Of a stretch of DNA of 64,000 bases, positions 7,001 to 21,135 are shown one piece after another; position 1 is the first letter of the stretch, and each line of letters opens with the position of its first letter. Below the pieces are notes generated by a model. That model did not search any database and had not been told where the DNA came from. It saw only the letters and a list, made by a program, of their open reading frames with translations. The stretch comes from Auraticoccus monumenti (GTDB lineage Bacteria > Actinomycetota > Actinomycetes > Propionibacteriales > Propionibacteriaceae). The DNA is taken from the NCBI RefSeq assembly GCF_900101785.1, contig NZ_LT629688.1:620001-684000 (forward strand). The letters are read 5' to 3'. A program made the position numbers and the translations under genes.

Positions 7001-7846
7001 GCGTCCGAGGTCGGGCTCGGCGGTTATGCGCTCGCGCAACGCCGGGGTGGCGTCGAGGACGCCGTTGGCAAGCGTCTCGACGGCGCGCCGCACCTGCGGC
7101 TGCAGCCTCTTACCCGCGGCGACGCCGGCGGTCAAGGCCTTGTCGTACAGCCGTTCGAGCAGGCTCGTCGGTGCTGCGCTCTCGCTCGTCGGGAGGAGAC
7201 GGAACCGGCTGCCGTGGGCCAGGCGCCAGAGGGCCAGGAAGTCCGGGTAACTGGATGCCTCGAAGAGAGCGATCAGGTCAAATTCCACATAGCCGCGGGT
7301 GCGGGTGTGGTGAAAGTCGCGGACGAGCCGAAGGACTCGTCCATTGCTAACCAGGCCCCATCGTCGGTCGGGGTCGGCGTTGAGGTAGCCCTGGAGCTCT
7401 TCGTGCGGCGAGCGCCGCGTGCCGGCCCGGTCGTCGAGATCAGTCTGACTGGTAAGGATCAACGGCGGGGCGTCGGAGCCGGTCCAGCCCATGTGAGTGA
7501 TACCCCAGGACTGGCCGCCGGCCGTCGCTTTACCGCGCTTGTACGCGGGTTCGAAGCCCAGTAGCTCGAGGAGTGGGCGGAGGAGCTTGTCGCGCAGGCG
7601 GGCGGTATCCATGCCCTCGGCGAGCTCCACGGCGTAGGCGGCCCAGAGGGCCTGGCCGCTGGCGAACGCCGCGCGCAGGTCGCCTTCATGCTGCGCTTTG
7701 GTGGCTGACTTGCCGGTGTCGTCGGTGAAGGTCGCGACGTCGGTGAGGAACGCGGCGTCGCCGACCACCGCGGACTGCCTGAGGTCGGCGACAAGAGCGT
7801 CCCCGATAAGGCCCCCGGAGGTGTGGACGAGGCTGACTTCGCTCAC
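4013..7846 (-). CDS. drmMI: DrmMI-like N6-adenine DNA methyltransferase (Eco57I type)
   Basis: This 1277-residue protein carries the SAM-binding motif DPACGSGAILVG (about residue 505) and the catalytic NPPW motif (about 754), typical of adenine-N6 methylases of the Eco57I/type IIG kind. A long N-terminal region (about 1-450) resembles the restriction-enzyme-like N-domain of such proteins, and the C-terminal third would be the target-recognition part. GTG at 7846 overlaps the drmD stop (GTGA), and the stop overlaps the drmA start. In DISARM the methylase marks host DNA as self. I see no obvious PD-(D/E)XK nuclease motif, but I could not align the N-terminus, so a fused type IIG restriction enzyme is not fully excluded. 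The order SNF2 helicase, methylase, DrmA-like helicase is what favours DrmMI. Confidence 0.78.
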   Translation of the reverse strand: MSEVSLVHTSGGLIGDALVADLRQSAVVGDAAFLTDVATFTDDTGKSATKAQHEGDLRAAFASGQALWAAYAVELAEGMDTARLRDKLLRPLLELLGFEPAYKRGKATAGGQSWGITHMGWTGSDAPPLILTSQTDLDDRAGTRRSPHEELQGYLNADPDRRWGLVSNGRVLRLVRDFHHTRTRGYVEFDLIALFEASSYPDFLALWRLAHGSRFRLLPTSESAAPTSLLERLYDKALTAGVAAGKRLQPQVRRAVETLANGVLDATPALRERITAEPDLGRELYREMLTVLYRLLFLLFAEQRGMLASANRFYTDTYSVTRLRARAEADDAEPRRRDLWEGFKATCRAFSEPRLAEALGVYPYNGRLFDLAQTPLTTAAGCDNHALLVAVRALTTMPVGKVQMHVDYRNLGVEELGTVYESLLDYTLQVAQAPLAADSGPVHPGQAYLADLSTERADLASYYTPADLVDLLLTRSLDPLIDQRLAAANTPQERQQALLALKVIDPACGSGAILVGALDRIALALARERSAPQEPSDSQLAHARRDVLQRCIYGCDKDPFAVELAKVTLWIHCVVPDQPLSFLDSHIVCGDSLIGWPLLKLPGQIPTAAFEYSKASQDDKKILTKARATNQGDISGLFSRDAVDPVLDLPSELSNSEQSYQDVRRKSEAFAAWRLSDNYDRWRKAADIWTAAFFWTADFGDAPTTHDYQEAVAGRANHALAAAARTVIADLNPLHWPLAFPDVRAARGFDIVVGNPPWEQLKGEEQEFFAQAAPAIAAMTSEHRGGAIAALADNDPGLHRRWTLYRGLQHRLAHYAKSSGRYTRTSSEANTYVLFTEAAANMSRDVGLIIKSGLAIDAAQSPVWKRLVRDGRPRLVLDMVNTRREGGPVFGGDVAPVERFSVVVLGPSQEDTSFDAAMLNFGVAEAATAKTRRWTGNDLTAVAPRTRTLLSSGRNEELELALELQFLFSTLDFSEADGADPWQLNYHRLFDSHGAKKEGLVHRDADLATAGYVLGQDKLFRHQCGDVAVPVYEGQMVNRWDHRARTFEGYTGPNKYRPKPNIPWSTEEQHADPCFEVEPRYWMKANVAEKRIHAVAGDRLLLAMRDIGRPWTDRRLMRVALIGRSPALHTLPVLSVEPKNALAAAALLNSMTFDFLVRLHIPGGHVAPWVVSQCAAPGPSALRTAEVLALAAELSVTSQSLATATERTLHAWDNNRRILIDARLDALVARAYQLNRKQYELVLDHFSVLRRAEEANYHEYRSKRLRLEAFDDLGGSA

Positions 7847-10665
7847 AGCTTCACCTCCGGATAGACCAGCGTCAAAGCGACGAGGTCCTGAGACATCGGG
7901 GTGACGTCATTCAGGCCGGCAGCCCACTTGTCGTCGAGCTCGGCGTGCCGCTCGGCCATTGACGCCGCTCGGGCCGTGGCGACGGCGGCGATGTCGTTCC
8001 GCACAGTTTGGCGGCACAATACGGCCTTCGCGTCTTCCTGCAGGTCGTGCCGGTCTTTCAAGCCGGCGCCGGCCCGGCCTCTGAGGTGCTGGACGGCGTC
8101 CGGGTCCAGCGCATCGCCGTAGACGGGGAGGACGACTGGGACGAGCTCTTCGAGCAGCACGGGCGGTGTCCCGCGCGCGACGTACCGCATCAAGACGTGG
8201 GCCACGGCGGTGAGCGCGGTGGCGTCCTGGCTGATCATCCCGGCAACACGGCCCGAGAAGGAGGGGTTGTGCGCCTGCTCCCGGGAGATGTCGACGAGGC
8301 GGCGCAGGAGCGGGTGCGCCAGGTCCACGACGTCCACGTCCGGGTCGTCCATGCCGAGCGAGGCGTCGAAGGTGTACCGGTGTGTCGGGTCGGTGACGTC
8401 CGATAGGAGGGGAGGCACTGCGGTGATTGAGAAGGTGCCGTTGTCGAATTCCGTGACCGTCCCGTGCAAATCACGGATTGCCGCGCGCGAGAACGCCGTG
8501 ATTCGGTCGGGAGTGCCGATCTCGCTCCGAGATCTGTCCAGGGCCGCCTCCACCAACGAGAGGCTGACATCGGCCTGTCCGTAAAACGACTCGTCGAGGA
8601 CACGGTCGAGCATCCCCTCGTCCACGATGGAGGCGTCGACAAGGGCGGTGAAGTCACGGTCCAGGTTCTCCTCGTCGGCCTCGAAGTCGAACAGCGTTGG
8701 CGCGATCCGATAGTCCATGCCGGGGTTCGCCAGGTGGAGGAGGATGTCGGGATTGGCGAGGAAAGGCGGGACGAAGCCGTACTGACGCCGCATCGCCTCG
8801 GCCTTTTTCACGATCAGCATCAGCAGGGCGACGTCAAGCCGGTCGTCGAGCACAAGTGTGCGGATGCCGACGAACTCCTCTCGCTGGCGGAACCGGTCGA
8901 TCCTGCCGTTGCGCTGCTCCAACCGGTTCGGGTTCCAAGGCAGCTCGTAGTGGACCAGCTCGGCGCATGCGCGCTGGAGGTTCAGACCCTCGCTGATGCA
9001 GTCCGTCGCAACAAGAACGGCGCGGGGCGACCTCTCGAACTCGACCAGGACGCGCATCCGCGTCGCGAGGTTCATCGATCCGTCGATCGACAGGATCTGC
9101 GTGTCGGGCGGCAGCGCAGGCAGCTTTGTGCCGGGGAGTGTCGCCTTCTCCAGCTGCTCCTTGAGGTACGCCAGGGTGTCGGTGAACTTGGTGAAGACGA
9201 GGACCCGCTGGACGTCGGGGTGTTTGGCCATCCGCCCGGGGAGGATCTGCAGCAGCTTGAGGAGCTTGGGATCCTTCGCCGGCACGACCTTGCGAGCCCG
9301 GTCCCGAACCTTGGTCAGCCACTCGATCTCGACGTCGGTGCCGAGTGCGGATTGCGCTACATCCAGTCGATAGGCACCCTCGGCGTCGTCGTCGGCCGCC
9401 AGCACGAGGTCGGCCGTCGTCTCGCGTGCCGCCTTGTCCGCCTTCGCGCTGGTCTCAGTCGCGGACTGCTGTTCAAGGGCGCGGAGCCGGTTCGCAACCG
9501 ACTTCCGGAGCGCCTCGGGAGAGGAAAGCGCTCGTCGCTGAAGGTGCGCCGCGACCCAGGAGTTGGACTGCCGCGAGTCGGCGGCCTCGTAAAGCGCGCC
9601 AGCATAGCCGCCAAGCTCGGCGAGCAGGGCCTGCATGTCCCTGAACCCGCGCAAGTCGACGATGTCCTCGTCGGCGTCCCGGCGGGGGAAGGGAGATTGG
9701 ATGCCTCGGGTCTCGTACCAGCTCTCGATGTCTTGCCGCCGCCGCTGGACGACATTGCTCCGCTTAGCCCTGGCGCGCTCGATGATGTGAACGTCAGCCA
9801 CCTCGCGTACCAGCGTCGGGTCGAGCATCTCGAAGAGGCTGGCGTAGCTGTCGGTGTGCCCGTTGTGAGGCGTGGCGGTCAGCATCAGCAGGTGACGGGC
9901 CGCCTTGGCGGCCTTCTGCGCGAACAACCACCGTTCCATGTCCGGGTTACCGCCGCGGCCGTCCGCGTGGGGCCGGGCGCACAAGTGCGCCTCGTCGATC
10001 AGCACTACGTCCCAGTGGTGCGACAGCACCAAGTCGGTTCGCGTTTTCACGTAGTCGATGCTGGCGATGACAACGTCATGGGCCGCCCAGACCGTCTGGC
10101 CCGGCAGTAGCTGCCGCTCAAGCGCTGGCATGAGGTGCCCCGCAACGGGGGTCGCATCGAGATGGAAGAAGTGGTCGAGCGCCTCGCGCCACTGCTCTCG
10201 GAGGTTCGCCGGGACGACCACCAGCACCCGCCGGGCGCGGCCTCGGGCGATGAGCTCGCTGAGAACGAGTCCGGCCTCGACGGTCTTGCCGGTCCCGACA
10301 TCGTCGGCGATGAGGAGCCTGACCTGTTCCTGACCCAGCGACATAAGCAGCGGCACGAGCTGGAAGTCGGTGGGGATGGCGCGGGACCGCTGGAGCCCGA
10401 GGATCGGCGCGGTGCCGTGGAGGAGTGAGAAACGGTAGGCGTCAAGTATGTGCTCCTGCTGACGGTGATCGCCGATGGCGTCGGGGCCGGGGATGGGCAT
10501 CTCGCCTGGCTCAACCGTCTCCAGGGCGGCGTGGAAGCGCTGGGTCTGGCTATCGCGGCCGTCCAACGGTGTTGCTGCCAGCAGTTCGCCATCGACGTAG
10601 TCGACGCGCCAAAGCCGGTTGCGAAGGGTGATGACGCGACCTGGCTCGAGGAGTCCCTCGGTCAT
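7843..10665 (-). CDS. drmD: DrmD-like SNF2-family helicase
   Basis: This 940-residue SNF2/RapA-type ATPase has Walker A DVGTGKT (about residue 123), Walker B DEAH (about 224) and motif III-like LTATPHNG (about 265). The C-terminal helicase lobe has LVFTKF and RNGRIDRFRQ (about 590), the arginine-finger motif. SNF2-type DrmD is the signature of class 1 DISARM and is first in that operon, as here. The ATG at 10665 is preceded by AGAGG, a fair ribosome-binding site. The 168-bp region upstream carries two inverted repeats and separates this operon from mcrC. Many stand-alone SNF2 helicases look alike, so the class 1 call depends on its coupling to the two following genes. Confidence 0.8.
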   Translation of the reverse strand: MTEGLLEPGRVITLRNRLWRVDYVDGELLAATPLDGRDSQTQRFHAALETVEPGEMPIPGPDAIGDHRQQEHILDAYRFSLLHGTAPILGLQRSRAIPTDFQLVPLLMSLGQEQVRLLIADDVGTGKTVEAGLVLSELIARGRARRVLVVVPANLREQWREALDHFFHLDATPVAGHLMPALERQLLPGQTVWAAHDVVIASIDYVKTRTDLVLSHHWDVVLIDEAHLCARPHADGRGGNPDMERWLFAQKAAKAARHLLMLTATPHNGHTDSYASLFEMLDPTLVREVADVHIIERARAKRSNVVQRRRQDIESWYETRGIQSPFPRRDADEDIVDLRGFRDMQALLAELGGYAGALYEAADSRQSNSWVAAHLQRRALSSPEALRKSVANRLRALEQQSATETSAKADKAARETTADLVLAADDDAEGAYRLDVAQSALGTDVEIEWLTKVRDRARKVVPAKDPKLLKLLQILPGRMAKHPDVQRVLVFTKFTDTLAYLKEQLEKATLPGTKLPALPPDTQILSIDGSMNLATRMRVLVEFERSPRAVLVATDCISEGLNLQRACAELVHYELPWNPNRLEQRNGRIDRFRQREEFVGIRTLVLDDRLDVALLMLIVKKAEAMRRQYGFVPPFLANPDILLHLANPGMDYRIAPTLFDFEADEENLDRDFTALVDASIVDEGMLDRVLDESFYGQADVSLSLVEAALDRSRSEIGTPDRITAFSRAAIRDLHGTVTEFDNGTFSITAVPPLLSDVTDPTHRYTFDASLGMDDPDVDVVDLAHPLLRRLVDISREQAHNPSFSGRVAGMISQDATALTAVAHVLMRYVARGTPPVLLEELVPVVLPVYGDALDPDAVQHLRGRAGAGLKDRHDLQEDAKAVLCRQTVRNDIAAVATARAASMAERHAELDDKWAAGLNDVTPMSQDLVALTLVYPEVKL

Positions 10666-10833
10666 GTCATCCTCTCGTCGTCTTTGCCGATCACCGGCGT
10701 AGCGGAACGGTGATTACCCGACCTGCCCGCCAGTACCCAGGCTAGGTTAGGGGCTGCTCTTGTCCGTGCGGTGGATTACCAACCTCACGGACTAGCCTGA
10801 ATCTAGGCGCGCGAAGGGCGGTCCATACTTGCG
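10666..10833 (-). promoter_or_regulatory. drmD upstream region with two inverted repeats
   Basis: This is the only gap in the mcrB-mcrC-drmD-drmMI-drmA series and so the likely DISARM promoter region. It holds ATCACCG (10690-10696) paired with CGGTGAT (10708-10714), spacer 11 bp, about 25 bp before the drmD start codon. It also holds GTCCGTG (10762-10768) paired with CACGGAC (10786-10792), spacer 17 bp. The first looks like a dimeric-repressor operator by size and position. The second could be an operator or an mcrC 3' hairpin; no T-run follows it. No clear -35/-10 pair was identified. Confidence 0.4.
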
Positions 10834-12033
10834 TCACCATTCTGTCTCGTCCTGAGCGGGCTCCACGCCCAGGGCCGGCACCACCTGCTCAGCCGCGATG
10901 GCCGTCAGCTGCCGCAGCACCTCCTCCGGTCTGCGGCTCAGGTCGAGGTGGCGAAGGTGCAGTCGGGTCCCCGCATGCTGGACGACGTGGTGGCGCGGGC
11001 CCGTCGGGCCGTCGGCGTAAATGAGGGTGGCGTCGGGCAGATTGGTCGCGGTCGCGTAGGCGAGCAGCTGGTAGAGGTCGGCACCCTGCCCCTCACCGCG
11101 GTCCCGCTTGTACTTGACGTCACCGACGAAGCACCAGCGGCCAGCGCTTCGCACGGCGAGGTCGGGCTTGAGCACGACCTGGTCCTGCTCGTCCAGGCGC
11201 AGACCGCTGTCACCGACGGAGAAGTCCGAATTCGGCAGTCCTGACGCCTCCTGCAGTGCGGTTCGCACGAACTGCTCGAAGACGTCGAAGAGACGCAGGG
11301 TGAAACCAGGGGCGCGCACCTGCCCGCCCTTCACATCCAGCATCGATCCACCGAGGACCACCCGAGCCAGCTCGAGCAGCGGACGGTAGTGCTCGTTCAG
11401 CCTCGTCCACCTCATCCGTTCCAGCAGGGCGAGTGGATCCCCTGACGGCTCGACGTGCCGCACCTGGCGCCACACCCGTTCCAGGGCCGTGCTCGAGGTG
11501 CTGCGGTGCGCGCCGAGCAGCCTCAGGCGTGCAACCGCCGCTCGCAGCACCCGGTTCTCGGCGATGTCCTCGTCGTGCACCGAGTAGCGCACGGCGATCG
11601 GGACGGGGGCTGGACGCCGAGCCTGGCGCTGCCAGCGGATACGACCCTTGACCACGGCCAGGTCGTCCGCGATCGTCCGGTAGGCGCGCAGCAGCCCTCG
11701 TGCGAGCGTGCTCTCGCAGGCCCGCACAAAGAGTGCGGTGATGCCCTCGACGAGGTCGTCGATCCCGGCGACCGCCGACCAGCCATCCCGCCACCGGTAG
11801 GGGTCAGCGGCGTAGGCCGTCATGAACAGCACCCGGTCGACCTCGATCTTCGGCCGCACCACCACTGGACGTTCACCGACCAGGACGCTGCCGATGACGT
11901 TTCCCGCCTGCACATGCAAGGCACCATCAGGGAGCGTGGTGATGCTGGCGTTGAAGACGCTCTCCAGCGTGATGCGCTCCGTCGTGGAAAGCGAGTCGAC
12001 ACGGGTGCGCTGGTTCTCAGTCAGCCGAAGCAT
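10834..12033 (-). CDS. mcrC: McrC-like restriction endonuclease subunit
   Basis: This 399-residue protein has the McrC layout: an N-terminal beta-rich domain (about 1-120) and a C-terminal PD-(D/E)XK nuclease core with KPDLAV (about residue 284) and GDVKYK (about 305) as the catalytic Asp...Asp-x-Lys. McrC is the nuclease that works with the GTPase McrB to cut modified DNA. Its start lies 17 bases inside the 3' end of mcrB, so the two are translationally coupled. The gene ends 168 bp before drmD on the same strand. The McrC family is well recognised, but the modification it targets cannot be read from the sequence. Confidence 0.85.
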   Translation of the reverse strand: MLRLTENQRTRVDSLSTTERITLESVFNASITTLPDGALHVQAGNVIGSVLVGERPVVVRPKIEVDRVLFMTAYAADPYRWRDGWSAVAGIDDLVEGITALFVRACESTLARGLLRAYRTIADDLAVVKGRIRWQRQARRPAPVPIAVRYSVHDEDIAENRVLRAAVARLRLLGAHRSTSSTALERVWRQVRHVEPSGDPLALLERMRWTRLNEHYRPLLELARVVLGGSMLDVKGGQVRAPGFTLRLFDVFEQFVRTALQEASGLPNSDFSVGDSGLRLDEQDQVVLKPDLAVRSAGRWCFVGDVKYKRDRGEGQGADLYQLLAYATATNLPDATLIYADGPTGPRHHVVQHAGTRLHLRHLDLSRRPEEVLRQLTAIAAEQVVPALGVEPAQDETEW

Positions 12034-14413
12034 CGCCAGGCCCCGTGGTGAGGGCAGCCTTCAGCTGCTCGAACTCCAGCTGGACCACCCGATCGGGGTG
12101 GTTGTAGAACAGCTCGCGCAGGGTGGGCATGACTGAGTTCTCCCAGGCCCGCTGCGCCCACACCTCACTGGCGCCCTGCCCCATGAAGTGGCTGGGCCCG
12201 ACCGACTGGTCGGGATCGGCGATGAGAGTGTTGGCCCGGTCGAGCAGGTCGGCCAGCCAGAGCAGGGACGGATCGACGGTGGCGAGGTGCCGGCGCAGCG
12301 TGCCGCTGACCGGTGTCTGCTCCGGTCGCAGGTCCCTCACGTAGAAGCGGCGTCGGAGTGCGGAGTCCAGGGAGGTGATGGAGCGGTCGGCCGTGTTCAT
12401 GGTCGCCACGATGAGCAGGTTCTCCGGCAGGCTGAAGGTGCTGCCGTACATCAGCGTCAGCTCGCGCTCTCGGTACTCCAGCAGGTAATACAGCTCGCCG
12501 AAGACGGCCGGGACGTTCCCGCGGTTGATCTCGTCGACCAGGAGGACGAAGGTCTGGTCCGGCTCACGCCGGGCCGCCTCAGCGTGACGGATGAGGGGGC
12601 CGTCGACGACCCGGAACTGGGTCGGCTGATCGGGGTCGGGTCGCAGGCCCTGGACGAAGTCCTCGTAGCTGGTGCCGGGGTGGAACTGCACCAGCTCGAC
12701 CCGGCTCGGGTCACCGGCCAGGAATTTGGCCAGCGCCCGGCCGATGTAGGTCTTCCCGGTGCCGGGTGGTCCTTGGAGGATGATCTGCCGCTTGTGACGA
12801 AGGAGCTCGACCGTCTCCTGCAGCCAGGCAGTGCCCGCGGCGTCCATGTGGAGCTGCTCGGCCAAGACCTCGAGCGTCGTCGGCAGCAGGGGCGTGACGA
12901 CCGGATCAATTGGCTCATCAGGGTCCTTGACGTCTTGGAAGGCGATATCCGCCTTGCCTGCACGCCAGTCTTCGAAAGCCTGTCGCATGGCCGCTGACCA
13001 TGCTTCGGGCGGCTCCGCCTTGGCGATCGTCCAAGCCAACGACTGGGCGTCCAACCGGTCCCGCAGCAGCGGCTGGTCCGCGTTCACGGCTGCGAGGATG
13101 GCGTCCAAGCGCTCGAGGAACAACAGATAGTGCTCGCCCGCCGTAGCAGCCTCTTGCGGGGGATACCCCCCGGCCAGCCGCGTGGTCGTCTTGGAGGGTG
13201 TGTCGCGCCACGGCGGGAGCTGTTCCGGCTGCGTGGCGAACAGCAGACAGGAGGCCAGGCTGAGTCGGGCACCCAAGCCGGACAGCTGGCCCTCCACCGG
13301 TACCGCGGCCAAAAATCGGTCGATCGCCTCGGGTCCGGGATCGATCTGAAGCTCGGCGAGGGCAGCAGTAGCCACTGCCGGTTCGGCAGTGGCCCACTTG
13401 AGGAAGTCGTCGTACACCCGGTAGTCGACCAGATTCGTGCCCTGGAAGGCCTTGCGCAGCGCCTCGATGGCATCCGCGCCTCCTGTCACCCGGTCGAGGG
13501 CCGAGCGGAACCCGCGTACGCCGTCGAGCTTGTAGTCGCGCTCGACGCCGTCGAGGTCGACGCTCTGCAGCAAATGTCGGGCCCAAGAGGTGTAGAGGTC
13601 GTTCACCGGGGGCTCGCCCTGCCACTTCTCGCGGTAGGGCCAACGGTAGAAGTTGATCCCGGAGGCGCTGCCGTAGTGGACGTTCGGGTCCAGCCGTTTC
13701 ACGACATCGCGAATCGATGCGCCGTCGGGAGCGAACGTCTTCAGCAGCTTCACCCGGTGATCTCGGTTCAGCATGGGTGGCGTCTCGTCGGGAAAGAGCA
13801 GGTGCTCGAGGGCGTAGCGCTGGGACCACGCAGTCTGGTCGTCAATCGGCTGGATGAAGTCGTGGAAGGCGTCGAAATTGCCGAATACCTCGGTCCGCTC
13901 GCTCCTGGTCAGCGCCTTCACGTGGGCGTAGACGTCGACCAGGTAGTTCAACATCTTCCACCGGTAGCTGTTGTACGCCTGACCTGGATTCGCGACGCCC
14001 GCCCGCAGAGCGACCCGGAGGTCGTCGGGGATGGGGCTGGTCCCGACGCTACGGAAGGCGATCACCCCATCCACCAGCTGCGTCTTCGTGCGCGAGCTCA
14101 CCGCGTCTGTGGAGACGATCAAGCAGTGGCCGTACAGCAGCTCCGCCGCAACCTGCACAGCGTCCTCGCTGACTCCGGCGAGCTGCCCCTCGAGCTTGGA
14201 GCTGAAGGTGCCAGCTCCCCCGTCGGCCTGTTTGACTACGCGGTCGACGAGCTCTCCTGCGGCGCCACGAGTATCGAGAGAACGACCGTCGAACAGGCTG
14301 TGGTCGTCGATGAGCGCATGATCGCGCCACCGCTCGGCGGCGGCGTACATCGGGCCGGCGGACGGGAGGACGATCCTGCTGCTGCTCACGGCACTCCTTG
14401 GCTCAAAAGACAT
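12017..14413 (-). CDS. mcrB: McrB-like AAA+ GTPase/ATPase, methyl-directed restriction
   Basis: From ATG 14413 the product is 798 residues. The AAA+ domain is C-terminal: Walker A GPPGTGKT (about residue 549), Walker B LLVDEINRGN (about 628) and the McrB signature MNTADRS (about 674). McrB rings drive the McrC nuclease. The N-terminal ~530 residues, which would contain the substrate-recognition module, match no reader domain I recognise (EVE, DUF3578 and others not apparent). This is longer than E. coli McrB (about 459 aa). An alternative GTG start at 14422 has AGGA too close, so ATG 14413 with AGGA about ten bases upstream is preferred. The start overlaps the end of a truncated NERD gene on the same strand. 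Confidence 0.83.
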   Translation of the reverse strand: MSFEPRSAVSSSRIVLPSAGPMYAAAERWRDHALIDDHSLFDGRSLDTRGAAGELVDRVVKQADGGAGTFSSKLEGQLAGVSEDAVQVAAELLYGHCLIVSTDAVSSRTKTQLVDGVIAFRSVGTSPIPDDLRVALRAGVANPGQAYNSYRWKMLNYLVDVYAHVKALTRSERTEVFGNFDAFHDFIQPIDDQTAWSQRYALEHLLFPDETPPMLNRDHRVKLLKTFAPDGASIRDVVKRLDPNVHYGSASGINFYRWPYREKWQGEPPVNDLYTSWARHLLQSVDLDGVERDYKLDGVRGFRSALDRVTGGADAIEALRKAFQGTNLVDYRVYDDFLKWATAEPAVATAALAELQIDPGPEAIDRFLAAVPVEGQLSGLGARLSLASCLLFATQPEQLPPWRDTPSKTTTRLAGGYPPQEAATAGEHYLLFLERLDAILAAVNADQPLLRDRLDAQSLAWTIAKAEPPEAWSAAMRQAFEDWRAGKADIAFQDVKDPDEPIDPVVTPLLPTTLEVLAEQLHMDAAGTAWLQETVELLRHKRQIILQGPPGTGKTYIGRALAKFLAGDPSRVELVQFHPGTSYEDFVQGLRPDPDQPTQFRVVDGPLIRHAEAARREPDQTFVLLVDEINRGNVPAVFGELYYLLEYRERELTLMYGSTFSLPENLLIVATMNTADRSITSLDSALRRRFYVRDLRPEQTPVSGTLRRHLATVDPSLLWLADLLDRANTLIADPDQSVGPSHFMGQGASEVWAQRAWENSVMPTLRELFYNHPDRVVQLEFEQLKAALTTGPGDASAD

Positions 14414-14720
14414 GACGGTCACTTCCTAGGGGCTGGAGCCGTTCGCGGGCCGCCGCGTGAGGGTCGAGCACATGTCCTGCGCCCCAGGTGCCCTCACGCC
14501 GGGTGATGTGACCGCCCTTGACCTCGATCACCGCGATACCGCGGCCAGGCCAGGCCACGAGGAGTTCGAGTTCGCCCTTCTCGTCGGTGTCGAGCAGGTC
14601 CACCCCGGCGAACGGCACCGCCTTCTCCGGAAGGGTCGCAGCGCGGGCGCGCCAAACCGCCTCTTCACCACCGCTGTCGGCATCGAACAGCGGCGTCCGC
14701 GGGACAAGTCGGGGCGCCAC
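14403..14720 (-). pseudogene. Truncated NERD-domain gene (5' remnant)
   Basis: The 105-residue frame starts at GTG 14720. Its first ~75 residues look like the opening of actinobacterial NERD/helicase fusion proteins: an APRLVPRTPLF opening, then AVWRA, AGVDLLDTDEKGELELLV and IAVIEVKGG. The last of these holds the E-x-K of the NERD nuclease fold. The sequence stays recognisable to roughly DPHAAARERLQ, then ends at a stop that overlaps the mcrB start by 11 bases. The remaining ~400+ residues of the family, including any helicase part, are missing. It reads as a gene cut off by the junction with the McrBC module. It could still be expressed as a short NERD domain. Confidence 0.55.
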
Positions 14721-15085
14721 GCGGCATGTCTATCGGACGCGACTGGCAAGCGACAGGGCAAGGACGCGGCCGTGGTCAGCCGCAGCCGCGCTCCGCTCGC
14801 GTTCCACGACGTCCGAAGCCGGGTCAACTGGCACGGGTGGGCGTCGTCGACCGATCACTGGACCTTTTCCGGAACCACCAGGACCGACCGGGCCCACAGG
14901 AGCCCACACCGACGGCACGACTTCAGCGCCGCCCCACCGCCGCCTGGGCATCCTCCCCCGCACGTCCCAGTCGACGGGCGTAGGCCACACCGCTGCGCAC
15001 GACGTGCGCTGCTCGGCGGCCACGCAGTGCAGCAGCACGTCCGCCCCTCGGTCCCTTGTCTCCACGCGCGACGCCTCAGCTAAGC
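14721..15085. other. Gene-free stretch between NERD remnant and frameshifted gene
   Basis: About 365 bp with no convincing coding frame on either strand. Open frames here give low-complexity Arg/Pro/Gly-rich products typical of non-coding GC-rich DNA. No strong hairpin or promoter was recognised. It may be decayed coding sequence at a module junction. Confidence 0.4.
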
Positions 15086-15690
15086 GTGGAAAACGTCGAC
15101 ACGCAGCTGCTGTCCACGGGCGCCTTCCTCGACCTCGCCCTGTTTGCCATGCGTCAGCAGTTCTTCCTCGAACGCCACGCCAACCAGCTGGTTGAGACCG
15201 CACGCACTTCGGTGGGTCGGACGAGCACGACGACCTCGGCGAGGTCATCGGTCACGAGGAGCAGCTGCTGCGCTTCCGCAACCGGCTCTGGTTCACCAGC
15301 GTCCCGTCCCGTCCCGAAGGCAGTGCCGTGCTGCGGCTGCTGCAGGAGCAGTACGGGTCCCCATCGCTCCTCGAGGACGTCGCCGGCGAGCAGGCCGACA
15401 TGGTGCGCATCCTCGAGCTGCGGGACAGCCGGCGGCGCCGGATCGCCGGCGAGCGGGCGGAGGAGTCGCGGCGGGCCCAGACCGAGCTGAACCGGCGCCA
15501 GCAGGACGAGCAGCAGCGGACGCGTCAGGTGGTCGAGACCGGTGTCGCGCTGCTGACGCCTCCGGCGGTCGTGTCCGGACTGGCGGCGCTGCTCGTCGAC
15601 CCGAGCCCGTGGTTGTTCCTCGGTACCTTCCTCGTCTCCCTCGTCGTCGTGGTCCTGGCCCTTGCAGTGGTGAGACACCGCCGGACCTGA
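15086..15690 (+). pseudogene. Frameshifted coiled-coil membrane protein gene
   Basis: Two frames join into one plausible protein of about 200 residues. From GTG 15086 one frame reads TGAFLDLALFAMRQQFFLER...NQLVETA to about 15200. A second frame, open from 15196, continues GGSDEHDDLGEVIGHEEQLL, a helical Arg/Glu/Gln-rich stretch (15400-15530), and two hydrophobic segments near the C-terminus (about 15540-15660) before the stop at 15690. A single-base loss, or two-base gain, near 15193-15210 explains the break. The tail of a cytoplasmic coiled coil followed by two membrane helices recalls CorA-like or effector-type topologies, but I cannot name the family. Programmed frameshifting or a sequence error are alternatives. 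It is convergent with the NERD gene that follows. Confidence 0.45.
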
Positions 15691-15696
15691 CGCCAG

Positions 15697-16653
15697 TCAC
15701 GCAGCGGCCACCAGCTGATCCTCGAGCTGGCGGATCGCAGCAGCCACCGCTTCCGGATCGAGAACCTCGGACCGTGAGAGGTGCTTCCGCAACGAGCGCC
15801 GACCACCCAGTAGCTGCACCCGCCCGATCCTGCGACGCGAGGCGCCCGACGACCAGTTTCCGTCGACGAAGAAGAGCACCGGCTGAACCGTGACCTTTAC
15901 CGACGCCGCCTCCAGCAGTCGTTGCACCCCCTCGGCCTGGCGTTCGACGCTCTCGGTCAGCTTGGTGGCTCGGCGACCGCCAACCCACAGCGACGGGGAG
16001 CTGGACCAGCGGCCCCGCACCTCGATGCGTCCCCGGTAGTTCTTGGCGTCGACCACGAAGACGCCTCCACGACAGACCACGATGTGATCGAGGTTGCCTC
16101 GTGAGCCCTTGAACCGACGGTCGTGGAGCACGGCCGCACCAGGTTCCTGGGCCACGAGCTCGTCGAGCACCAGTCCGACCACCCGCTCCCCCTTGGCTCC
16201 TCGCACCCAGGCGCGGACGTGCTGGGGCTCACCGAACAGGGTCAGGACGAGCGGCGCGAGAAAGCCGAAGCGGTCACGCACACGTTGGCGGTAGCGGGTC
16301 TGCCTGCGCTGGTACTCCTCCTCGGCGGAGGCACCTGCGACTGAACCTGCCCGGGCGGGCGACAGGGGCTTGGCCAACGTCTCGGTGGACAGCGCGGTGA
16401 CATCCGGGGACGGGACGACGGCGGCCAGCGGCTGAGGTGTCGGTGTGGACACAGGTGCCGCTGATGAGGAAGAGGGAGCTGGGGACACGGGTGCTGCCGG
16501 AGACGACGCGGCAGCGGTGTCACGCGCCGAGCACGAGAGGCACCAGATCAGTCGCGAGGAGGAGTCCCGGAGGGCACGGACTCCGGGAGCCAGCGCGGTC
16601 GCGCACGAGGCGCAGACGCCGGGATAACGAAGCACGAATTCCTTCGTGGGCAT
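15697..16653 (-). CDS. Zinc-ribbon plus NERD-domain nuclease-like protein
   Basis: This 318-residue protein starts at ATG 16653, chosen because CASC and CLSC, a likely zinc-binding four-cysteine ribbon, lie within its first ~50 residues. A Ser/Pro/Ala/Thr linker follows (about 55-120). The NERD domain then begins at GAKGERVVGLVLDEL (about 170), with HDRRF, GNLDHIVV and VVDAKNYRG. The last two carry the Asp and the D-x-K expected of a PD-(D/E)XK-like nuclease fold. NERD proteins are predicted DNA- or RNA-processing enzymes and turn up in defence islands. It lies between the frameshifted gene and the HTH-VWA operon, which is divergently transcribed. Its exact substrate is unknown. Confidence 0.65.
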   Translation of the reverse strand: MPTKEFVLRYPGVCASCATALAPGVRALRDSSSRLIWCLSCSARDTAAASSPAAPVSPAPSSSSAAPVSTPTPQPLAAVVPSPDVTALSTETLAKPLSPARAGSVAGASAEEEYQRRQTRYRQRVRDRFGFLAPLVLTLFGEPQHVRAWVRGAKGERVVGLVLDELVAQEPGAAVLHDRRFKGSRGNLDHIVVCRGGVFVVDAKNYRGRIEVRGRWSSSPSLWVGGRRATKLTESVERQAEGVQRLLEAASVKVTVQPVLFFVDGNWSSGASRRRIGRVQLLGGRRSLRKHLSRSEVLDPEAVAAAIRQLEDQLVAAA

Positions 16654-16803
16654 GCGGCACAGAGTGCCCGAGTGACGGCGCATCCGTTCCCTGGCACGCC
16701 GAGATTCGCACCCTTCGACGAGGGGCGCTTCGCCGCCGGGCCCGGTGTACACGCGTGTCCGCACCGATGCTGGCCATCTCGGAGCACCGCAAGGAACAGA
16801 CTG

Positions 16804-16831
16804 TTGCACATGTGCAGTAACTGCGTATAGT
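16804..16831 (+). promoter_or_regulatory. Promoter with palindromic operator, leaderless start
   Basis: TTGCAC (16804-16809) and TATAGT (16826-16831) are separated by 16 bp, a good vegetative-type promoter. The start codon ATG at 16838 is only seven bases past the -10 box, so transcription probably begins at or next to it and the mRNA is leaderless. A perfect 12-bp palindrome TGCACATGTGCA (16805-16816) overlaps the -35 element, as expected for a repressor site. The first gene encodes a helix-turn-helix protein, so autoregulation is likely. Confidence 0.6.
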
Positions 16832-16837
16832 AATGAC

Positions 16838-17230
16838 ATGCACGAACCTTCACATCGACTAGAGGCCGCCGTGGCCGACGTAGAAGCGGCAGCACGGGAC
16901 CTCGGCGGCGTCGACCAGGCCGCTGCGCTCGCCGCTCTCTCCAGCGCCCGGGAGCGCATCGACGCCCTGATCGACGAGGTCGCCGCCCAGGGCGTCCTCG
17001 CGGGTCAGTCCGTGCGGTCGCTGGCCGAGGCCGCTGGTGTCGCACCCAACACGCTGTCCCCACGTCTGGCCCGTACCACCGTGCTCGGCGGCTACGCCGA
17101 AGACGGCCGCGTCGGCGCAGAGGGGATCGCCCGAGCCCGCTACGACCTCCGCAACGGCCAGTACCGCCCGGCCGAACAGACCGAACCGCTCACCTTCCGC
17201 GCCCGCCGCTCCCGAAAGGACCGCTCATGA
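16838..17230 (+). CDS. Small helix-turn-helix protein (HTH-VWA operon)
   Basis: This 130-residue protein begins at ATG 16838, placed by the -10 box directly upstream. Residues 1-50 are an Ala/Glu-rich helix (VADVEAAARDLGG...). Residues ~52-75 (GQSVRSLAEAAGVAPNTLSP) look like a helix-turn-helix in which SLAEAAGVA and NTLSPRL would be the two helices. A short Arg-rich tail ends the protein. Its last bases overlap the VWA gene start (ATGA), so the two are co-translated. A DNA-binding regulator of its own operon is the simplest role. I do not recognise a named family. Confidence 0.6.
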   Translation: MHEPSHRLEAAVADVEAAARDLGGVDQAAALAALSSARERIDALIDEVAAQGVLAGQSVRSLAEAAGVAPNTLSPRLARTTVLGGYAEDGRVGAEGIARARYDLRNGQYRPAEQTEPLTFRARRSRKDRS

Positions 17231-17880
17231 CCGACGCCACCTTCACCCACCTGGCCATGCTGCTCGACCGCTCCGGCTCGATGCAGTCGATCAAGGCCGC
17301 CACCGAGCAGGGCTTCGACGCCTTCGTCGCCGAGCAGCGCGGCCAGCAGGGCCTCTGCACCATGACGCTGGCCCAGTTCGACCAGCAGTACGAGGAGGTG
17401 TTCCGCGACGTCGACATCGCCGACGTCCCGCCGCTGCGGCTCGCACCCCGTGGCAGCACCGCACTGCTCGACGCCATCGGGCGGCTCGTGCACACCACCG
17501 GGGAGCGGCTCGCCGCACTGCCGGAGCACGCCCGGCCGGGCAACGTGGTGGTCGGCATCATGACCGACGGTCACGAGAACTCCAGCCAGGAGTACACCCA
17601 CCCGGCCATCAAGGCGCTGATCAGCCAGCAGGAGGAGGCCTACGACTGGACCTTCCTGTACATGGGCGCCAACCAGGACGCCATCGAGGTCGGGGCGCAG
17701 CTCGGAGTCGACGCCCGACGCTCGATGACCTACACCGCAGAAGGCACTGGCGCCGCTCTTGGCGCGACAGCGGCCATGGTGTCGCGGCTGCGCGTGGCGC
17801 GCGCTGGTGGCGCCTCGGCGAACCAGATCCGGGAGGACATCGGCTACACCGAGGCAGACCGTGACCAAGCTGGGCGATGA
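17227..17880 (+). CDS. VWA (von Willebrand A) domain protein
   Basis: This 217-residue soluble protein is almost entirely one VWA domain. The MIDAS metal site DRSGSM is at residues 14-19, the threonine-bearing loop (RGSTALLDAIG) at about 76-86, and the third MIDAS element MTDGHEN at about 113-119. There is no signal peptide or membrane helix, so it acts in the cytoplasm. VWA domains of this kind bind partner proteins through Mg2+ and occur in several anti-phage and stress systems together with helicases or kinases. Here it is coupled to the HTH gene by a four-base overlap and sits 153 bp before the PLD-helicase gene on the same strand. Whether all three genes work together is unproven. Confidence 0.7.
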   Translation: MTDATFTHLAMLLDRSGSMQSIKAATEQGFDAFVAEQRGQQGLCTMTLAQFDQQYEEVFRDVDIADVPPLRLAPRGSTALLDAIGRLVHTTGERLAALPEHARPGNVVVGIMTDGHENSSQEYTHPAIKALISQQEEAYDWTFLYMGANQDAIEVGAQLGVDARRSMTYTAEGTGAALGATAAMVSRLRVARAGGASANQIREDIGYTEADRDQAGR

Positions 17881-18033
17881 CTTCCGCACCTGCCTCAGCA
17901 ATTCATTACCGTCGGATCGCACGACTCCGCTTCGAGGGGTTCTTAGAGGCTTTAGTCGGCCACGTGATTGTGCTGGACTCGCATCGCCGAACCCTGCATG
18001 CCGAGTGTCAGTGGCTCATGCCAAGCTCTCGCC

Positions 18034-21000
18034 ATGGATCACGGCCTCTACGAAGCGCTTGTCACCGAATCTCTGAACGAGCGTCTGGCGCAGCTGCGAG
18101 ATCGAGACCCGTCCGTTTCTGCGGTGGACGCCGCTGAGGTACCGCGCGTTCTCAGCCGCCATGTCGCTGAATCGGTCGAGCGGGTGCTCCGAACGGTGAC
18201 GTCCGCCGAACGCCGACTTGAGCTGGTAAACCGCGTCCTCGCGGTTCTCGAGGACGCGGGAACAACTGTCGAAGGGCCGGCCCGCCAGCTGCAAGCGATC
18301 AGCTACCGGGACCAGTTTCAGGCTGGCCCATCGACCAGTGTCCGGCCCAGCACGCCGCTCAACGACTCGGCCCTCATGACCAACAGCCGTGGCGAGCCGC
18401 AGCTTGCCGCCGAGTTGCGGGCAGAGATCGATTCGAGCGACCAGGTCGATCTGCTGTGCGCCTTCGTCAAGTGGCATGGACTTCGTCTCCTGGAGCAACC
18501 ACTACAGCGAGCTCGTGAGCGCGGCGTGCCAATCCGAGTGATCACGACGACGTACATGGGCGCCACCGAGCGGACCGCTCTTGATCGGTTGGTGCGCGAG
18601 TTCGGCGCGTCCGTGAAGGTGCACTACGACACTCGACGGACGCGCCTGCACGCCAAGGCGTGGATGTTCCATCGAGCAACCGGCTACGACACCGCCTACG
18701 TCGGCTCCTCCAACCTCTCCACCGCCGCACTGCTCGACGGCGTCGAGTGGAACGTCCGGGTGTCGCGCACGTCGACGCCCGACCTGCTGACCAAGTTCGA
18801 GGCGACCTTCGAGTCCTACTGGAATGACCCCGGTTTCGAGAGCTACGACCCGGATCTGCACCGGGAGCGCCTCGACCAGGCCCTGGAGGAAGCGTCAGGT
18901 CGGCGCGCCCACGAACGCGTGACCCTGTCCATCTCGGGACTAGAGGTGCGGCCCTACCCGCACCAGCAGGCCATCCTGCAGGAGCTCGACGTCGCCCGGC
19001 GTGTCCACGACCGGCACCGCAACTTGGTCATCGCCGCCACTGGCACCGGCAAGACCGTGGTCGCCGCGCTCGACTATCGCCGGCTCTGCACGGACGGGCG
19101 ACGCCCACGACTGCTCTTCGTGGCACACCGCAAGGAGATCCTGGAGCAGTCACTGCGGACGTACCGGGAGGTGCTGGGCGACGGCAGCTTCGGCGAGCTG
19201 TACGTCGACGGCCGTCGCCCAGAGCAGTGGGACCACGTCTTCGCCAGCATCCAGAGCTTGGGCAGTTTGGGTCCCGACACGGTGCCGGCTGACCACTTCG
19301 AGGTCCTGGTCATCGACGAGTTCCACCATGCCGCCGCGGTCACCTATCGCCGAGTGCTCGACCACTTCCAGCCGGTGGAGACCCTCGGGCTCACGGCGAC
19401 TCCGGAGCGGACCGACGGAACCGACGTCCGCGACCTGTTCGATGGCGTGGCCACGTCCGAGCTGAGGCTGTGGCAGGCCCTCGAGGCCGAGCTGCTGTGC
19501 CCCTTCCACTACTTCGCCGTGCACGACAGCACGGACCTCTCGCAGCTGACCTGGCGGCGAGGCGGCTACGACACCGGTCAGCTCGAGGGTGTGTACACCG
19601 GCAATGACGCCCGCACGCGGATCGTGCTGCGGCAGCTCCGGGACAAGGTGACGGACACCGGGCAGATGCGGGCGCTGGCCTTCTGCGTGAGCGTCGCCCA
19701 TGCCGAATACATGGCGAGGGCCCTGAGTGACAGTGGCGTCGAGGCGGTGGCCGTCCACGGTGGCACGCCGGGACCCCGTCGTCAGGCGGCGGTCGAGGAC
19801 CTGCGCCAGCAACGCATCAACGTCATCTGCACCGTCGAGGTCTTCAACGAGGGTGTGGACATCCCCGAGGTCGACACCGTCCTGTTGCTGCGACCCACTG
19901 AGAGCACGACCGTGTTCCTGCAGCAGCTGGGCCGCGGCCTGCGCAGTACCCGCGACAAGGATGTGCTGACGGTCCTCGACTTCGTCGGCAAGCAGCGCCG
20001 GGAGTTCCGCTACGACCTCAAGCTGCGTGCGCTCACCGGTCGATCGAGGCGAGACCTGCAGCGTGATATCGACGAGGGCTTCCCCTTCCTGCCTTCGGGC
20101 TGCCAGATCATCCTCGACCGAGTCAGCCAGGAGCTGGTGCTCGAGAACCTTCGGCAGCAGCTCGGACAGCGCTGGAACCAGCTCATCAGCGAAGTGCGAT
20201 CCATGGCCAATCAGCGCGGGGACACCCCGCCGCTCGACATCTTCCTACGAGACACGGGCGTGGAGCTCGCAGATGTCCTGCACGAGGGGCGCCACTCGTG
20301 GACGGAACTCCAGCGCAAGGCCGCGCTGCCGACGCCAGAAGGCCGGATCCACGAGGAGGCGCTGCTCAAGCGAACACGAGCACTGGCGCACGCGGACGAC
20401 CTCGAACGCCTGCAGGTGTATGCCACGCTGCTGGACGACCCCAGCTTCGAGCCCACGAACGCTCGCGAGCGCAGGCTGGCAGCGATGCTCCTCTTCTCGC
20501 TGTGGCCCACGGGCGCCCCGTCTCCCTCCGTGCGTCAGTCGCTGCGCATGCTGGAGCAGGAGCCGGCCATCTGCGCTGAGCTGCGCCAGGTGCTGGACGT
20601 CGCCCTGGGCCAGGTCGCCCATGTCACGACCAGCCTCGACGGTGAGCTGGCGGACGTGCCGCTGCAGGTGCATGCGCAGTACTCGCGGGAGGAGGTTCTG
20701 GCCGCGCTGGGCTTCACGCCCCAGTGGAACCACGACGAGGGACGACTGCCCAACAGCATGCGTGAGGGCGTCGTCTACATCCCGGAGCTGCACGTCGACG
20801 CCTTCTTCATCACGCTGAACAAGACTGAGGGGGACTACTCCCCCACCACGATGTACGCCGACTACCCGATCAGCGACACGCTCTTCCACTGGGAGTCCCA
20901 GTCCCGAACAGCGGCCGCCTCGATGACTGGGCGACGCTACTTGAAGGGCCGCAGCCACGTACTGCTCTTTGTCCGTCACACGCGCAAGGGCGAGTTCGGT

Positions 21001-21135
21001 ACCAACCCGTACCTGTTCCTGGGCCCCGCGACGTACGTCTCCCACCAGGGGGAACGCCCCATCGCCATCACCTGGGAACTGCAGCACCCGGCACCGTCGG
21101 ACTTCCTGACCAGCGCCCGTGTGGCGGTGGCCTGA
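18034..21135 (+). CDS. PLD nuclease-DEAD/DEAH helicase fusion (DUF3427 type)
   Basis: From ATG 18034 the product is 1033 residues. An N-terminal helical part (1-110) precedes a phospholipase D-like nuclease domain with HAKAW (about residue 205) and GSSNLS (about 229). The superfamily 2 helicase follows: Walker A GTGKT (about 335), DEFH (about 427) and the second lobe with QQLGRGLRST (about 630). A ~350-residue C-terminal region, ending around HTRKGEFG and AITWELQHPAP, fits the DUF3427 domain of this family. Such fusions are restriction-like defence candidates in which the helicase brings the PLD nuclease to DNA. The upstream alternative start at 17968 lacks a ribosome-binding site. It could be a single-gene system or the effector of the HTH-VWA operon. 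Confidence 0.78.
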   Translation: MDHGLYEALVTESLNERLAQLRDRDPSVSAVDAAEVPRVLSRHVAESVERVLRTVTSAERRLELVNRVLAVLEDAGTTVEGPARQLQAISYRDQFQAGPSTSVRPSTPLNDSALMTNSRGEPQLAAELRAEIDSSDQVDLLCAFVKWHGLRLLEQPLQRARERGVPIRVITTTYMGATERTALDRLVREFGASVKVHYDTRRTRLHAKAWMFHRATGYDTAYVGSSNLSTAALLDGVEWNVRVSRTSTPDLLTKFEATFESYWNDPGFESYDPDLHRERLDQALEEASGRRAHERVTLSISGLEVRPYPHQQAILQELDVARRVHDRHRNLVIAATGTGKTVVAALDYRRLCTDGRRPRLLFVAHRKEILEQSLRTYREVLGDGSFGELYVDGRRPEQWDHVFASIQSLGSLGPDTVPADHFEVLVIDEFHHAAAVTYRRVLDHFQPVETLGLTATPERTDGTDVRDLFDGVATSELRLWQALEAELLCPFHYFAVHDSTDLSQLTWRRGGYDTGQLEGVYTGNDARTRIVLRQLRDKVTDTGQMRALAFCVSVAHAEYMARALSDSGVEAVAVHGGTPGPRRQAAVEDLRQQRINVICTVEVFNEGVDIPEVDTVLLLRPTESTTVFLQQLGRGLRSTRDKDVLTVLDFVGKQRREFRYDLKLRALTGRSRRDLQRDIDEGFPFLPSGCQIILDRVSQELVLENLRQQLGQRWNQLISEVRSMANQRGDTPPLDIFLRDTGVELADVLHEGRHSWTELQRKAALPTPEGRIHEEALLKRTRALAHADDLERLQVYATLLDDPSFEPTNARERRLAAMLLFSLWPTGAPSPSVRQSLRMLEQEPAICAELRQVLDVALGQVAHVTTSLDGELADVPLQVHAQYSREEVLAALGFTPQWNHDEGRLPNSMREGVVYIPELHVDAFFITLNKTEGDYSPTTMYADYPISDTLFHWESQSRTAAASMTGRRYLKGRSHVLLFVRHTRKGEFGTNPYLFLGPATYVSHQGERPIAITWELQHPAPSDFLTSARVAVA

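Follow-up and report, generated by a model that had tools for sequence, protein, structure and literature searches.

The HTH-VWA locus and its promoter

Two adjoining genes on the plus strand of the window (the whole stretch of 64,000 nucleotides that was analysed) encode an HTH protein of 130 residues and a VWA protein of 217 residues, as an earlier sequence-only reading had reported; the genes lie at 16838-17230 and 17227-17880. The two open reading frames overlap by 4 nt (ATGA), a putative promoter lies directly in front of the first, and the region 16000-18200 gave no Rfam match and an empty tRNA scan. The features are:

15697..16641, minus strand: divergent gene for a NERD-domain protein (chosen start; the open reading frame extends to 16959), outside the unit
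16804..16825, plus strand: predicted promoter-operator element TTGCACATGTGCAGTAACTGCG, conserved, spanning the -35 to -10 interval
16805..16816, no strand: perfect 12-bp palindrome TGCACATGTGCA, which makes up half-sites one and two of the element
16826..16831, plus strand: -10-like box TATAGT, 16 bp after TTGCAC and 6 nt before the ATG
16838..17230, plus strand: HTH protein gene, open reading frame of 130 aa
17227..17880, plus strand: VWA protein gene, open reading frame of 217 aa, family phrog_7371
18034..21135, plus strand: SauUSI-like PLD-helicase, predicted type IV restriction enzyme (open reading frame from 17968), outside the unit

The element consists of three half-sites, a TGCA-n4-TGCA palindrome followed by TGCG. 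The palindrome is indeed perfect and overlaps the TTGCAC at 16804-16809 and, with the ATG 6 nt after TATAGT, the transcript would be leaderless or nearly so; both points agree with the sequence-only reading. Its description of the promoter as strong finds no support, given that TTGCAC matches TTGACA at three of six positions and that a scan of 16300-18200 for a sigma-70 consensus found no site. The palindrome was also rejected as noteworthy by itself, since in this window of 70.5% GC perfect 12-bp palindromes occur at chance level (35 observed, 38.65 in shuffles). What lifts it above chance is the conservation, upstream of the HTH gene, of the three-half-site element that contains it. Within this conserved context, the palindrome is very probably the operator of the HTH protein itself.

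Because the pattern TTG-n(6-9)-GCA-n(4-7)-TGC was derived from the same pair loci on which it was scored, its presence within 80 bp of the HTH start at 21 of 21 HTH-VWA loci is a partly circular count; the HTH start codon was taken at each locus as the first in-frame one 3' of the element. At other gene starts (483, drawn from the fetched loci, paired and unpaired, plus part of the window) the pattern occurred once, and a narrower form of the element was found at 20 of the 21 pair loci and at none of these 483. The column profile, which is independent of the gene-start control, gives a mean of 1.42 bits for the core against 0.34 upstream and 0.32 downstream, one spacer base having been taken out of the operator rows of L081 and L086 for column alignment. 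The position of the element varies little: in 20 of 21 loci the TTG stands 34-38 nt 5' of the start codon (the exception, L078, is not leaderless), and in 17 of 21 a TANNNT follows the TTG box by 16-18 bp, against a shuffled expectation of 0.85, with the start codon 5-7 nt further on. A clear TANNNT is absent from the remaining four.

The element belongs to the HTH gene, because it is present at all pairs and absent from the 800 bp around the HTH-less VWA genes of 18 fetched loci (0/18). In the window's own genome, a search that allowed up to three mismatches returned a single site, at the HTH promoter; a wider HTH regulon was rejected on this count, and the HTH protein most likely controls the HTH and VWA genes alone there, as judged from predicted sites. 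A degenerate form of the pattern, run over 57 genomes, yielded beyond the known sites about as many matches as a reversed control, and one extra candidate site, in G019, was rejected because it lies inside a coding frame.

The recognition helix of the HTH protein is of two types, S/TEN (13 proteins), which goes with the operator arm TCCGCA, and APN (eight proteins), which goes with NNTGCA. Helix type and operator arm agree in 21 of 21 loci, a match that corresponds to a single change on a tree computed with the helix columns left out and is for this reason no independent test of binding; the covariation is suggestive only and carries no statistical weight.

Distribution, limits and history of the cassette

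Among 96 genomes (the window's own and its relatives) the VWA protein was matched in 17 and the HTH protein in 14, and in 13 of these 14 the VWA gene directly follows the HTH gene; the remaining HTH match (G064) is weak, covers 77 residues and belongs to a genome without a VWA match. A set of 394 genomes of the class gave VWA matches in 29, the weak ones fetched in part, and HTH matches in 13. All eight strong HTH matches of this set stand directly 5' of a VWA gene, and the other five are weak and partial (E 1e-5 to 2e-4), from genomes that are absent from those listed as VWA-positive. A sample of 396 genomes of the phylum added two HTH matches, both from pairs already known. HTH scoring covered ten candidates per genome in the phylum sample and the class genomes, and at most seven in one class-genome search.

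Altogether 21 HTH-VWA loci were read, from at least four actinobacterial families (coded f1, f3, f7 and f49, plus three named loci of Cellulosimicrobium and Antribacter). The two genes overlap by 4 nt in six of these pairs and by 1 nt in one, and are spaced by 15-93 nt in the other fourteen. The placing of HTH matches directly 5' of the VWA gene in relatives and class genomes supports the proposal, already made by the sequence-only reading, that HTH and VWA form one unit.

What recurs is a block of about 1.1 kb (element, HTH and VWA) between flanks that are mostly different. Thirteen locus pairs were compared by blastn, besides L066-L067. In six of them (L033-L034, L063-L064, L064-L065, L068-L074, L081-L086 and L083-L086) the similarity around the pair sets in at the element, or 2-11 bp in front of it, and stops no more than about 110 bp from the VWA stop codon; in four it begins inside the HTH gene (L062-window, L070-L079, L071-L074 and L081-L083), in L070-L073 it covers the VWA gene alone, and in two it extends into a flank (L032-L033 and L068-L071). 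Empty sites were sought in 11 genomes, with nine loci compared (L237 and L238 left out). At L073 the cassette block measures about 1.27-1.29 kb, and the same flanks lie 124, 134 and 57 bp apart in G298, G079 and G088, which makes an empty site in three of nine compared relatives; in the comparison of the other six, the two flanks did not come out close together.

The HTH gene is missing beside two members of the VWA clade. In G027 (L067) HTH and element are gone and the VWA gene is intact, with 92.6% DNA identity to that of G004 (L066) and with flanks that match those of the latter, and by this comparison the case is clearly a loss; the second member is L075. As an observation in its own right, L067 and L066 form a natural comparison pair: their regions are otherwise syntenic, and L067 lacks HTH and operator but retains VWA.

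In a VWA tree of 64 rows, made by a quick method and without L032 (a long read-through frame), all 20 paired proteins and the HTH-less L067 and L075 fall in one starred group, viral and cellular VWAs interleave, and the paired and unpaired VWAs of a single genome (G431) come to lie in different parts. HTH and VWA distances correlate across 20 pairs (r 0.84), a value reached by none of 5000 permutations; this shows a shared history, not contact between the two proteins.

The two proteins and what the cassette may do

The HTH protein has no curated family above cut-off, its family matches being weak and all below it, and neither a PHROG nor a phage-record match. Its model (pLDDT 84.3, built on four sequences) comprises an N-terminal helical hairpin, the HTH around residues 59-78 and a C-terminal tail of low confidence, in which F120 and R123 are invariant in 21 HTH rows and P117 is nearly so. 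No acidic residue of the tail is invariant, an acidic residue being the usual ligand of a MIDAS. The best Foldseek match had E 0.52, and the best VIA Z (6.9, 58 residues, rmsd 2.5) concerns the helical hairpin alone, so that searches with the predicted fold show neither a relative nor a new fold.

Residues 1-215 of the VWA protein match positions 1-203 of 204 of phrog_7371 (E 1.7e-62), and no Pfam model was matched at E 0.1. The MIDAS residues D14, S16, S18, T78 and D114 are invariant in 37 of 37 aligned rows (alignment without L032 and L097), and the model (pLDDT 96.3) has a classical VWA fold, close to an integrin I domain (Z 19.4, rmsd 2.6, 178 residues) and to the archaeal ArnAB (Z 17.7, rmsd 3.2, 183 residues). 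Relatives are common without this HTH, and they occur in 215 of 50,697 phage records and in at least 532 viral stretches. One of them, gene 65 of Microbacterium phage ClearAsMud (L210), bears the name 'DNA ligase', as in several Microbacterium phage records, a name that looks wrong because the gene matches the VWA family. VWA proteins are thought to capture peptides through the MIDAS (PMC7159879). By analogy with this mode of capture, and because of the phage relatives, a role as adaptor or sensor is likelier than one as enzyme, and the protein is most likely a peptide-capturing adaptor.

Comparison of the loci shows the pairing, the element and its position, the single own-genome site, the cassette limits and the shared history. 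The explanation that we favour, and consider probable, is that of a self-contained, self-regulating cassette in which the HTH protein represses its own leaderless promoter, from which both genes are driven together. The HTH protein would act as a dimer, probably through its N-terminal helical hairpin, and would bind the TGCR-n4-YGCA palindrome and the third TGCG half-site between -35 and -10, and the bound protein would keep its own promoter repressed. The VWA protein might then sense the tail of the HTH protein (PxxF..R), or a cellular or phage peptide that competes with it, whereupon repression would be relieved. The components of this proposal differ in strength: binding of the HTH protein to the element is highly likely, repression rather than activation is fairly probable, and contact with the VWA protein through the tail is doubtful. 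In its boldest form the proposal would amount to a new transcription switch, a mobile sensor cassette of 1.1 kb in which a metal-dependent (MIDAS) VWA recognises the tail of the repressor encoded in the same operon and in which a peptide from outside, such as one of phage origin, alters expression by competing for the MIDAS pocket; to this we give little credence.

The likeliest alternative makes the HTH protein an activator of its own promoter, possibly in response to a signal sensed jointly with the VWA protein. The poor -35 hexamer and the lack of a nearby sigma-70 consensus site in the window are as in activator-dependent promoters, and the 24 bp upstream of the -35 carry extra half-sites (1.24 per locus against 0.23). 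The best-conserved half-sites, however, lie within the -35 to -10 interval, and proteins bound between these two boxes usually block the polymerase. Activation is in our view unlikely.

The abundance of VWA relatives in phages and viral stretches, together with the interleaving of viral and cellular VWAs in the tree, is what suggests that the cassette is a phage-related competition gene, that is, a VWA of a phage family, kept under a self-limiting regulator, that works as a decoy or against phage assembly. This is quite unlikely, since the HTH protein has no relative in phages and, in the sample of 64, the paired VWAs group together in a clade of cellular proteins, and we know of no phage phenotype for the HTH-VWA pair.

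Several traits of the cassette are those of a type II toxin-antitoxin system, with the HTH protein as autoregulating antitoxin and the VWA protein as toxin: a small first gene for a putative DNA-binding protein, whose tail is conserved though modelled at low confidence, a second gene that is close or overlapping, a predicted operator over the promoter, and a compact cassette with empty sites. The conserved element speaks for self-regulation by the first gene. Retention of the VWA gene where the HTH has been lost disfavours a toxin, its copy in G027 having stayed intact after the loss of HTH and element; L075 too, a member of the VWA clade, has no HTH beside it, and relatives without this HTH are common. 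To our knowledge, no toxic activity has been described for this VWA family. We regard this alternative as improbable.

The neighbourhood and known systems

The sequence-only reading placed the pair in a defence island directly before a PLD-helicase, and this holds. The pair borders such an island, whose genes upstream of it, all on the minus strand, are McrBC-like, DrmD-like, methyltransferase and NERD genes, and the PLD-helicase follows the VWA gene, with a gap of about 150 nt if the ATG at 18034 is its start. The minus-strand block runs from 4013 to 16641 and holds genes for a PglX/DrmMI-like methyltransferase, a DrmD-like SNF2 helicase, McrC, a McrB-like AAA protein and NERD proteins. A short NERD open reading frame at 14403-14720 (minus strand), which borders the McrBC genes, looks like a remnant; its match is confined to the first 87 or so residues of a NERD-helicase-like gene of 557 aa in the sister species (L062:15698-17368).

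The helicase carries the Pfam domains PLDc_2, ResIII, Helicase_C and DUF3427, it was assigned by PADLOC to mREase_IV with 1080.5 bits, and its residues 118-749 match PDB 7CLG (E 8.9e-79), the SauUSI entry according to the SauUSI paper (PMC7913695). With a PLD nuclease, an SF2 helicase and a C-terminal recognition region all present, its sequence predicts a type IV restriction enzyme resembling SauUSI.

The helicase adjoins the pair at two of 21 loci, the window and L086, and in the latter it is 45% identical, lies some 0.66 kb past the VWA gene and is encoded on the opposite strand; at L063 and L065 the downstream sequence is too short for a call. The NERD gene also stands beside the pair at two of 21, the window and the sister species of the same genus (L062), where a GntP permease gene follows the VWA gene. 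An HTH-VWA-helicase operon was rejected on this adjacency, and the proposal of one system with the PLD-helicase or the NERD gene is equally unsupported. The survey comes near the distribution that the sequence-only reading had named as speaking against it (a pair mostly away from defence genes and never next to the helicase), short of 'never'.

Strong PADLOC genes lie within about 9 kb of five of the 21 pairs (window, L062, L064, L083 and L086). The scan covered 186 neighbour proteins of the 20 loci outside the window, with a reach of about 7.5 kb, less at contig ends; three DinG-type matches, a mad3 match near L066 and one unassigned mad3 match were set aside by judgement as probable housekeeping. 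No enrichment in defence islands is claimed, because strong PADLOC matches turned up near the HTH-less control loci as well, in 33 families with the loci pooled (119 proteins of at least 200 aa from 14 of 18 loci; L067, L094, L095 (no usable neighbours) and L097 left out). Ten neighbours from L062, L064, L068, L069, L072, L073, L074 and L078 were run against Pfam (permeases, a NERD protein, a primase, a lipase, two SDR proteins, a pyruvate kinase, a LysR-type protein and two EamA proteins) and most of them serve metabolism, transport or replication. Apart from shared synteny, no family of neighbours recurs in close company with the pair. A family of SDR-type dehydrogenases lies near eight pairs (L034, L065, L068, L069, L070, L071, L073 and L074), within about 5 kb of the VWA gene at varying distances, and is probably background.

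That the pair is the switch of a defence system with the PLD-helicase (and the NERD gene) as effector is highly improbable: the two are adjacent in the window inside a defence island, L086 has a related helicase close by and five pair loci have strong PADLOC genes, but adjacency is limited to two of 21 loci and once to opposite strands, the sister species keeps the pair and the NERD gene with a permease in the helicase's place, the helicase resembles SauUSI, a single-protein enzyme, and HTH-less loci also have strong PADLOC matches. On the comparison of loci, the helicase is a coincidental neighbour of the pair.

The sequence-only reading knew of no named system with this pairing, and our search of the literature agrees, the HTH-VWA cassette not being described in the papers searched, which include the available parts of PMC7159879, PMC11090510, PMC7913695 and PMC7824862. 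The likeness to SauUSI (PLD, SF2 helicase and DUF3427) concerns the neighbouring gene at 18034-21135 alone. TerY-P triads and TerY-like modules share with the pair a short single-domain VWA with a DxSxS...T...D MIDAS, and TerY-like VWA modules occur near restriction systems (PMC11090510); the partner here, in contrast, is an HTH protein, and no PP2C phosphatase or Ser/Thr kinase was found among the window neighbours and the ten proteins of other loci run against Pfam. The window neighbours so run were the NERD gene, the helicase and the genes of the McrBC/DrmD side, the remaining neighbours having been scanned with PADLOC alone. The MoxR-VWA ternary conflict systems resemble the pair in having a VWA, which is there thought to capture peptides through the MIDAS (PMC7159879), but the comparison of neighbour families gave no third one that keeps close to the pair. 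As far as tested, what both kinds of system share with the pair is the VWA domain alone.

Type II toxin-antitoxin systems have the same compact, apparently self-regulating two-gene layout with a first gene for a DNA-binding protein, here a putative one, and differ in that the VWA gene outlasts the loss of the HTH. The nearly end-to-end match (E 1.7e-62) connects the VWA protein with phrog_7371, a family of phage proteins of unknown function, from which the pair differs by its HTH partner, which has no PHROG or phage-record match.

Taken together, these comparisons are best read as pointing to an undescribed self-regulating HTH protein with a MIDAS-intact VWA partner whose family is common in phages. 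A tempting but unsupported claim of a defence system is thereby removed, and a large and little-studied VWA family, with hundreds of members in phages and viral contigs besides the bacterial ones, gains a first genetic handle in the form of a defined partner, a defined promoter and a single predicted operator in the window's genome. The self-regulating two-gene layout is already known from other systems, and we rate the second gene, the VWA, as the unusual part.
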